Source: an archaeon RBG_16_50_20
GTDB taxonomy: Archaea > Thermoproteota > Bathyarchaeia > 40CM-2-53-6
Length of the DNA stretch: 33,361 nt
Direction of reading: 5' to 3'
Assembly: GCA_001768965.1 (NCBI GenBank)
Contig: MEMY01000095.1
Location: 1-33,361 of the forward strand
Of the stretch, positions 350 to 33,169 are shown in pieces (the first letter of the stretch is position 1; each line of letters begins with the position of its first letter). Under the pieces are notes generated by a model. It was given only the letters and a program-made list of their open reading frames with translations. It was not told the origin of the DNA and did not search any database. The position numbers were made by a program, and so were the translations under genes.

Positions 350-1900
350 ATGGATCACCTTCACAGTGAAGGGTTTCAAAAGGTAACCAGAGTTGACGAC
401 GCCCTTCGAATTTTCCTCGCAGCGATGCGTAGGCCTCCGCCAAAAACAGAGTCAGTTATTCTCTCTGAGGCTCTCGGAAGAGTGTTGGGCGATGACATTG
501 TATCTCGACAATTCATCCCAGCTGTCGATCGATCGGTCATGGACGGCTATGCTGTTCGTTCTGCGGATATCGCAAATGCCTCCGAGGAGCACCCTATTGC
601 TCTGGAAGTGGCGGGAGAGAGTAGAATTGGTGAGGTATGCCGAATCGTCGTGAAAGCTAGACAGGCAGTAACGGTCGCGACCGGGAGCATGATTCCTCCT
701 GAAGCAGATGCAGTGGTAATGGTCGAGATAACTCGGATTCTTCCGGACCGTAAGGTCGTTGTCCATGCTCCGACCACTCCGGGCCAAAACATTTCCAAAA
801 GGGGTGAAGATGTCTCGCCGGGGACACTTGTTCTGAGGAAAGGCCAACGCCTTCGCGCCCAGGACTTGGCTATACTGAGAGCAATGGGCTCTGCGAAAGT
901 CAGGGTCGTCAGGCGAATTCGAATAGGTATCATATCGACCGGTAACGAACTTGTGAACTTACCGGGAAAGAGAGATGTCGGCAAGGTTGTTGACCTCAAT
1001 AGGCAAATCCTATCAGCGATGTCAGAGGAATTGGGAGCCCAACCCATGGACCTGGGAATCGCCCGGGACGATGAATCAGGGATTATTCGAATTCTACGGA
1101 AAGCCTTGCGATCCTGCGACGTTATCCTGATTACTGCTGGATCCTCGGTGGGGAGGAAAGATCTCGTCCCAGAATGCATCAACAGGCTTGGCAAGCCGGG
1201 GATGCTGGTCCATGGTGTTGCAATGCGACCATCTCTACCAACAGGGTTGGCAGTTGTGAGTGGGAAACCGATACTATCACTCCCGGGCTTTCCTGTATCA
1301 GCGATGATTGCGGAATTGGGAGCCCAACCCATGGACCTGGGAATCGCCCGGGACGATGAATCAGGGATTATTCGAATTCTACGGAAAGCCTTGCGATCCT
1401 GCGACGTTATCCTGATTACTGCTGGATCCTCGGTGGGGAGGAAAGATCTCGTCCCAGAATGCATCAACAGGCTTGGCAAGCCGGGGATGCTGGTCCATGG
1501 TGTTGCAATGCGACCATCTCTACCAACAGGGTTGGCAGTTGTGAGTGGGAAACCGATAGTATCACTCCCGGGCTTTCCTGTATCGGCGATGATTGCCTTT
1601 CGCGTCTTCGGCCGGCCTCTAATCGGTCGACTCATGGGCACCGGGGAGCCCTCAGAGCCGGTTGTCAAGGCGGTTCTGAAAGAGCGGATCAGCGGACCGA
1701 AAGGTTATCGGACATTCGTCAGGGTGATGTTGAGAAAGACCCTCGATGGGTTGGTTGCGGAGCCCCTGAAGCTTCAGCGAGCTTCGGTCCTAATGAGCAT
1801 GGTTGCCGCAAATGGAATAATCATTATCCCAGAACATGTTGAAGCCTTTGATGCGGGGCAAGAAGTTGACGTGGCGGTTATCGGCGAAATCGCATCCTAG
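350..1900 (+). CDS. moeA: Molybdopterin molybdenumtransferase MoeA with internal 95-residue duplication
   Basis: MoeA inserts molybdate (or tungstate) into adenylylated molybdopterin in cofactor synthesis. Family motifs are present: RSVMDGYA (61-68), TGSMIPPEADAVVMVE (about 111-126), STGNEL (about 196-201), ITAGSSVGRKD (261-271) in the molybdopterin-binding domain, and LPGFPVSAM (311-319). The protein is 516 residues, whereas the family is usually near 400-420. The excess is exactly explained by a tandem repeat: residues 227-321 recur as 322-416 with one Leu/Val difference. The repeat covers most of the MogA-like domain, including its molybdopterin-binding motif. The frame stays open, so a protein could be made, but folding of this domain is uncertain. 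It is either a very recent duplication or an assembly error. The C-terminal domain IV (about 420-516) is intact. No other cofactor genes adjoin it. Confidence 0.93.
   Translation: MDHLHSEGFQKVTRVDDALRIFLAAMRRPPPKTESVILSEALGRVLGDDIVSRQFIPAVDRSVMDGYAVRSADIANASEEHPIALEVAGESRIGEVCRIVVKARQAVTVATGSMIPPEADAVVMVEITRILPDRKVVVHAPTTPGQNISKRGEDVSPGTLVLRKGQRLRAQDLAILRAMGSAKVRVVRRIRIGIISTGNELVNLPGKRDVGKVVDLNRQILSAMSEELGAQPMDLGIARDDESGIIRILRKALRSCDVILITAGSSVGRKDLVPECINRLGKPGMLVHGVAMRPSLPTGLAVVSGKPILSLPGFPVSAMIAELGAQPMDLGIARDDESGIIRILRKALRSCDVILITAGSSVGRKDLVPECINRLGKPGMLVHGVAMRPSLPTGLAVVSGKPIVSLPGFPVSAMIAFRVFGRPLIGRLMGTGEPSEPVVKAVLKERISGPKGYRTFVRVMLRKTLDGLVAEPLKLQRASVLMSMVAANGIIIIPEHVEAFDAGQEVDVAVIGEIAS
1027..1311 (+). 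repeat. Tandem duplication in moeA, copy 1 (285 bp)
   Basis: Begins GGAATTGGGAGCCC and ends ...GCGATGATTGC. The unit is 285 bp, a multiple of three, so the reading frame is kept. By eye it differs from copy 2 at only two bases: c1274 versus g1559 and a1300 versus g1585. Just upstream of copy 1, TATCAGCGATG at 1011-1021 matches 1296-1306 at the same 285-base offset, so a short homology flanks the duplication. Confidence 0.92.
1312..1596 (+). repeat. Tandem duplication in moeA, copy 2 (285 bp)
   Basis: Directly abuts copy 1. The junction ATTGC|GGAATTGGG joins the unit's end to its beginning, and after copy 2 the sequence continues into CTTTCGCGTC, the natural continuation of the MoeA domain. 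An ancestral gene lacking one unit would encode about 421 residues, the normal family size. Confidence 0.92.
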
Positions 1901-31543: not shown

Positions 31544-33169
31544 GTGTCGTATTTAGCTGGTCAACCTGTTCTCATATTGAAAGAAGGTTCGAGTCGCAAT
31601 CGCGGACGAGACGCTCAACGAAGCAACATCACTGCAGCAATCATCGTATCCGAGGTTGTCAAGAGCACCCTTGGACCGCGCGGCATGGACAAGATGCTTG
31701 TCGACAGCTTGGGCGACGTGACTGTAACTAACGACGGCGCCACGATCCTTGACGAAATAGATGTCCAGAACCCCGCCGCCAAAATGATGGTTGAAGTTGC
31801 CAAGACACAAGACGATGAGGTCGGCGACGGGACAACCACGGCCGTTGTCCTTGCAGGCGAATTATTGAAACGAGCACAAAACTTGCTGGACGACAACGTT
31901 CACCCCACGACCATCGTAGCGGGTTACAAGAAGGCCGCTGATCGTGCGGTCCAGATCCTCGATTCATTGGGCGAACCGATCAAACTGGAAGACAAAGCTG
32001 CGCTGAAGAAAGTTGCTATGACTTCGATGCACAGTAAAGGTCTTGGTGGTGTCCGTGAACATTTCGCGGACATTGCGGTCACTGCTATTTTGCAGGTGAT
32101 GGAGAAGCGAGGCGATTCCTGGAACGCTGACATTGACAACATACAGCTCGTCAAGAAGGAAGGCAAGAGCATGCTGGACACGGAGCTGGTGAAGGGCGTA
32201 ATCGTGGACAAGGAAGTGGTTCACCCGGGGATGCCCAAACAAGTCAAGAATGCAAAGGTCGCGCTGCTTGACGCGGCATTGGAGATTGAGAAAACTGAGA
32301 CTTCGGCGGAGATACGTATCAACGATCCAACTCAGATGAAGGCCTTCTTAGACGAGGAAACTCACATGATGAAGGAAATGGTGGACAAGATCAAGGCGTC
32401 CGGGGCTAACGTTGTGCTCTGCCAGAAAGGGATCGACGACACAACACAACATTTCCTGGCGAAAGAAGGAGTCCTCGCAGTGAGGAGAATCAAGAAGTCC
32501 GACATGGAGAAGCTGGCTAGAGCGACCGGAGGCAAAATCGTAACCAACCTAGACGACCTGAAGGCTCCAGACCTTGGCAAGGCAGGCCTCGTTGAGGAGA
32601 AAAAGGTCGGCGACGATAAGATGGTCTTCATTCAAGAGTGCAAAGATCCCAGATCGGTCAGCATCCTAATCAGAGCCGGCCTTGAGCGGTTAGTCGACGA
32701 AGCTGAAAGAGCGCTCAAGGACGCGCTTTCCGTCGTGGCCGATGTCGTACACAAACCCAAAGTTGTGACTGGTGCAGGTGCGATCGAGGCTGAACTGTCA
32801 AAGAAGTTGATAGATTACGCGATCAAGGTCGGCGGGCGCGAGCAACTTGCAATAGAGGCCTTCGCCGAAACGCTTGATACGATTCCGAAGACTCTGGCCG
32901 ACAATGCAGGTTTGGATCCGATCGATATCATGGTGTCACTGCGTTCGGCACACCAGAAGAAAGATGGTCTGACATACGGAGTGGACGTCTTCGAGGGCAA
33001 GATCAGGGACATGAGGAAGCAGGGTGTCCTGGAGCCTGTTCGCGTTAAAGAGCAGGCAATTAAGTCCGCAGCCGAAGCTGCATCAATGATCTTGCGGGTC
33101 GATGACGTGATCGCCGCAGCCAAACCGCCCCCAAGTCCACCTCCAAGAGGCGGAGAACCCGACTACTAG
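31544..33169 (+). CDS. thsA: Thermosome subunit (group II chaperonin)
   Basis: 541 residues. Family motifs: [13 protein letters not shown] (42-54), [10 protein letters not shown] (60-69), [15 protein letters not shown] (from 94), MTSMHSKG, the helical-protrusion region and the nucleotide-site [14 protein letters not shown], then GLDPIDIM and [10 protein letters not shown]. It forms the double-ring ATP-driven chaperonin that folds proteins in archaea. The GTG start is set by GAGGT eight bases upstream. The C-terminus ends in a proline-rich tail ([17 protein letters not shown]) rather than the Gly-Met repeats common in thermosomes. It is transcribed alone, followed by a pyrimidine-rich end and a tRNA gene. 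Confidence 0.97.

Follow-up and report, generated by a model that had tools for sequence, protein, structure and literature searches.

An in-frame 285-bp tandem duplication in an archaeal moeA gene is very probably an assembly mis-join

We analyzed the molybdopterin molybdenumtransferase gene moeA at the beginning of a stretch of DNA from the archaeon RBG_16_50_20 (assembly GCA_001768965.1, contig MEMY01000095.1). The whole stretch, hereafter the window, spans positions 1-33361 of a scaffold of 36,129 bp and stops where an N run begins; the draft genome contains 1,337,130 bases in 113 contigs and is 67.5% complete. As assembled, the moeA open reading frame occupies positions 350-1900 of the forward strand, on which all moeA features below are located. 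Its start is located 350 bp from the end of the scaffold, and the frame remains open throughout its 516 amino acids, against ~421 expected with a single copy of a 285-bp unit that it contains twice. The two copies (copy 1, 1027-1311; copy 2, 1312-1596) lie head to tail and in frame, and are identical at 283 of 285 positions. Their sole two mismatches, at 1274-1300 in copy 1, are 1274C/1559G, which gives a Leu or a Val codon, and 1300A/1585G, which is silent; their distances to the join between the copies are 38 and 12 nt, respectively. The Tandem Repeats Finder (TRF) score of 1130 excludes a chance origin of the repeat. The earlier note on this DNA, which described two adjacent copies differing at two bases, was exact in its coordinates, and removing one copy does give the normal-sized MoeA that it announced (421 amino acids).

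In the 516-residue protein, Pfam places MoeA_N at residues 14-180, followed by two MoCF_biosynth stretches and then MoeA_C at residues 440-510, with 144, 167, and 61 bits for the three families, respectively, each above the cut-off. The protein resembles known MoeA in containing MoeA_N, MoCF_biosynth, and MoeA_C in this order. However, known MoeA possesses one molybdopterin-binding domain and ~400-460 amino acids, whereas the protein as assembled carries the MoCF_biosynth part twice within 516 residues. This departure in size and domain count is most likely attributable to the assembly. Comparison with the moeA of relatives, which the earlier note had proposed, revealed a single unit in all three aligned sequences, with a 95-column gap corresponding to the 95 extra residues of the window protein. 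No close relative was found for direct comparison of moeA, and a GTDB scan yielded only a 42%-identical relative. Among the 20 other genomes of the family, only two yielded a MoeA match (32-35% identical); the best matches, at about 49%, come from elsewhere in the order and class, outside the family. This distribution may mean that moeA was widely lost in the family, that it was gained here, or that the contig was mis-binned.

In relatives, moeA also occurs as two neighboring genes, between which stretches of 29-134 nt, spaced ~1.27 kb apart and mostly in the N-terminal half, are identical; these tracts were observed at L004 (928-1061 and 1270 nt further on), L008, L009, L015, L021, and L025. 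They look like repeated gene conversion between the tandem paralogues and are also present in good assemblies, such as G029.

Such pairs lend some plausibility to an origin in which a deletion fused tandem moeA paralogues and gene conversion homogenized the copies. However, the front (residues 9-301) and the back (residues 327-511) of the window protein both find their best match in the same relative gene, G031:C15 (49-50%), which argues that no paralogues were fused, and we rejected this explanation. The tracts inspected in the relatives are located mainly in the N-terminal half, outside the 285-bp unit, and the genome contains a single moeA as far as found: neither a second moeA nor an alternative single-unit copy was detected elsewhere in it, at 67.5% completeness. 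We therefore regard a fusion as extremely improbable. A moeA decaying after loss of the pathway was also considered and rejected, because moaC is present twice in the genome (G000:C88, 8780-9196; G000:C35, 5574-5987); the molybdopterin oxidoreductase family PF00384 was not found in this genome, which is merely 67.5% complete.

The junction between the copies, at 1311/1312, reads ATGATTGC on its left side and GGAATTGG on its right side, and no microhomology exists at the join itself. The 16 nt ahead of copy 1 (1011-1026, TATCAGCGATGTCAGA) and the 16 nt ahead of copy 2 (1296-1311, TATCAGCGATGATTGC) match in register at 12 of 16 positions: both begin with TATCAGCGATG, followed by TCAGA ahead of copy 1 or ATTGC ahead of copy 2. 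The same arrangement was observed at a second duplication of this assembly, L078, where the copies are preceded by TTCACGAAGCTTTTG and TTCACGAAGCGACTT. In both cases, 11 or 10 identical in-register bases are followed by 5 nt that match solely at the fourth position and then by the join. Among 384,736 random position pairs, only six showed a run of at least 10 at the corresponding place.

These bases bear directly on the possibility that the duplication is real and very recent, and that the population tolerates the 516-residue MoeA, is polymorphic for it, or carries it in an impaired form. No stop codon interrupts the in-frame copies, a short in-register similarity adjoins the unit, and the near identity is compatible with a recent event; template switching between TATCAGCGATG (at 1011) and the similar TATCRGCGATG (at ~1296 in the single-copy gene) would offer a route. 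However, template switching or simple slippage at the repeat predicts TCAGA before copy 2, where ATTGC is observed: the junction carries the bases of the downstream end, not those of the upstream one. Moreover, the identical junction pattern occurs at the out-of-frame duplication that breaks another gene (L078), the duplication is absent from all aligned relatives, and the control sequences described below are free of such duplications. A real event of this kind is thus improbable. Still less probable is the fuller reading, in which the archaeon is unusually duplication-prone and tolerates, or can reverse, a genuine in-frame doubling of most of the molybdopterin-binding domain in its single-copy MoeA. 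The junction bases fit instead with a left contig end laid over a right contig start by a short, poor overlap in which the left bases were kept. Both mismatches lie within the final 38 nt of copy 1, on the side of the supposed left-contig end; near-identical copies whose differences lie close to a putative contig end are expected of a false duplication.

Duplications of the same class, some of them tied to contig ends or gaps, were found elsewhere in the assembly (L078, L071, L087, L091, and L094). We scanned a sample of 81 stretches of this genome, 877 kb in total, and, as a control, ~1.06 Mb from six relatives in the same way. Besides moeA, the sample contains four exact duplications of 36 bp or more whose two copies adjoin, and a further one, of 65 bp, in which Ns separate the copies, whereas none occurs in the control; by sequence length, the five adjacent cases versus none correspond to p ~0.02 (our own arithmetic). 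The nature of these cases outweighs their number as evidence. The longest, L078, is a 235-bp duplication (G000:C63, 7298-7532 and 7533-7767) with 235 of 235 bases identical and a period that is not a multiple of three, and it breaks a gene of the metallo-beta-lactamase fold (Lactamase_B_2) into two frames. Each gene piece has a PF12706 match, which covers profile positions 5-165 in the first piece and 118-200 in the second. This duplication probably reflects the same assembly fault, and its correction in this genome would be worthwhile. Two others begin at the very first base of a contig: a 57-bp exact duplication (L094; G000:C81, 1-114) by which 19 chaperonin residues are repeated, although the paralogue encoded in the window (31544-33169) lacks such a repeat, and a 36-bp exact duplication (L087; G000:C73, 1-72). 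A 68-bp exact duplication lies mid-contig (L091; G000:C77, 3713-3848), and the 65-bp exact duplication flanks 25 Ns (L071; G000:C22, 4497-4651). A shorter match of 24 bp is present on both sides of an N run at L056. In total, the sample contains 140 N runs, and none was found in 800 kb of the relatives' good assemblies; because of this contrast between genomes, scaffold gaps are the likelier source of most N runs, though not necessarily of all.

The earlier note had left the choice between a very recent event and an assembly artefact; the other exact duplications in this assembly speak for the artefact, and the real event is not favored. We hold with high confidence that the moeA duplication is an assembly mis-join with no counterpart in the organism, because exact duplications in the same assembly also occur at the first base of contigs, around an N gap, and, out of frame, within a conserved gene, and because one of them (L078) shares the junction signature of moeA. 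A chimera formed in vitro during library amplification and incorporated in the contig would also accord with the short in-register similarity adjoining the join; however, a rare chimeric read is unlikely to win the consensus, and the duplications at contig base 1 or around an N gap would be left unexplained, which makes such an origin barely credible.

The moeA duplication and its junction signature were directly observed, as were the like duplications elsewhere; from them we infer the joining step and the behavior of the assembly program as follows. Within a single-copy moeA, two contigs would truly overlap by ~285-300 bp, the left one reaching to ~1311 and the right one starting from ~1011; copy 1 would probably represent the final bases of the left-hand contig ahead of the join, and copy 2 part of the right-hand contig. 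The contigs would have been joined via a false overlap of ~16 nt, for which 1011-1026 and 1296-1311 are the proposed partners, and the true overlap would have stayed unmerged, so that the sequence common to both contigs appears in duplicate. The mismatches would be contig-end errors or strain variants, and may have kept the program from using the true overlap of nearly 300 bp.

False segmental duplications produced by the mis-assembly of duplicated overlapping contigs have been described by Kelley and Salzberg (2010, PMC2864568). As in moeA, such copies, once placed side by side, mimic a recent duplication with a few single-nucleotide polymorphisms. Their cases come from diploid vertebrate genomes and involve separate contigs, whereas moeA belongs to a draft prokaryote genome and its join has no N gap; unlike in the diploid cases, the copy differences here would stem from errors or strains. 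The same authors note that mis-assembly rarely accounts for duplications contained in one contig (PMC2864568).

Several observations weigh against a mis-join. The copies are in frame, which chance would give once in three, and no N run exists at the moeA join. The five non-matching bases at the join do not correspond to a clean overlap merge, and the join has to be deduced, because contig ends within the scaffold are unrecorded. The short-overlap junction pattern is absent from the L091 duplication, so the duplications are not all of one origin. In addition, the excess over the controls reaches only p ~0.02, and most of the control sequence comes from better assemblies.

The junction pattern, with 10-11 matching bases, five mostly non-matching bases, and a near-perfect repeat, could be used to check other draft genomes for the same fault. 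For the archaeon itself, since the evidence favors an artefact, neither an additional copy of the domain nor on/off switching of the gene by slippage, both suggested earlier, has support. The doubled MoeA domain should not be taken as biology: several duplications in this draft genome look false, and one of them disrupts a conserved gene. In the organism, moeA probably has the ordinary form, with a single unit and ~421 codons.
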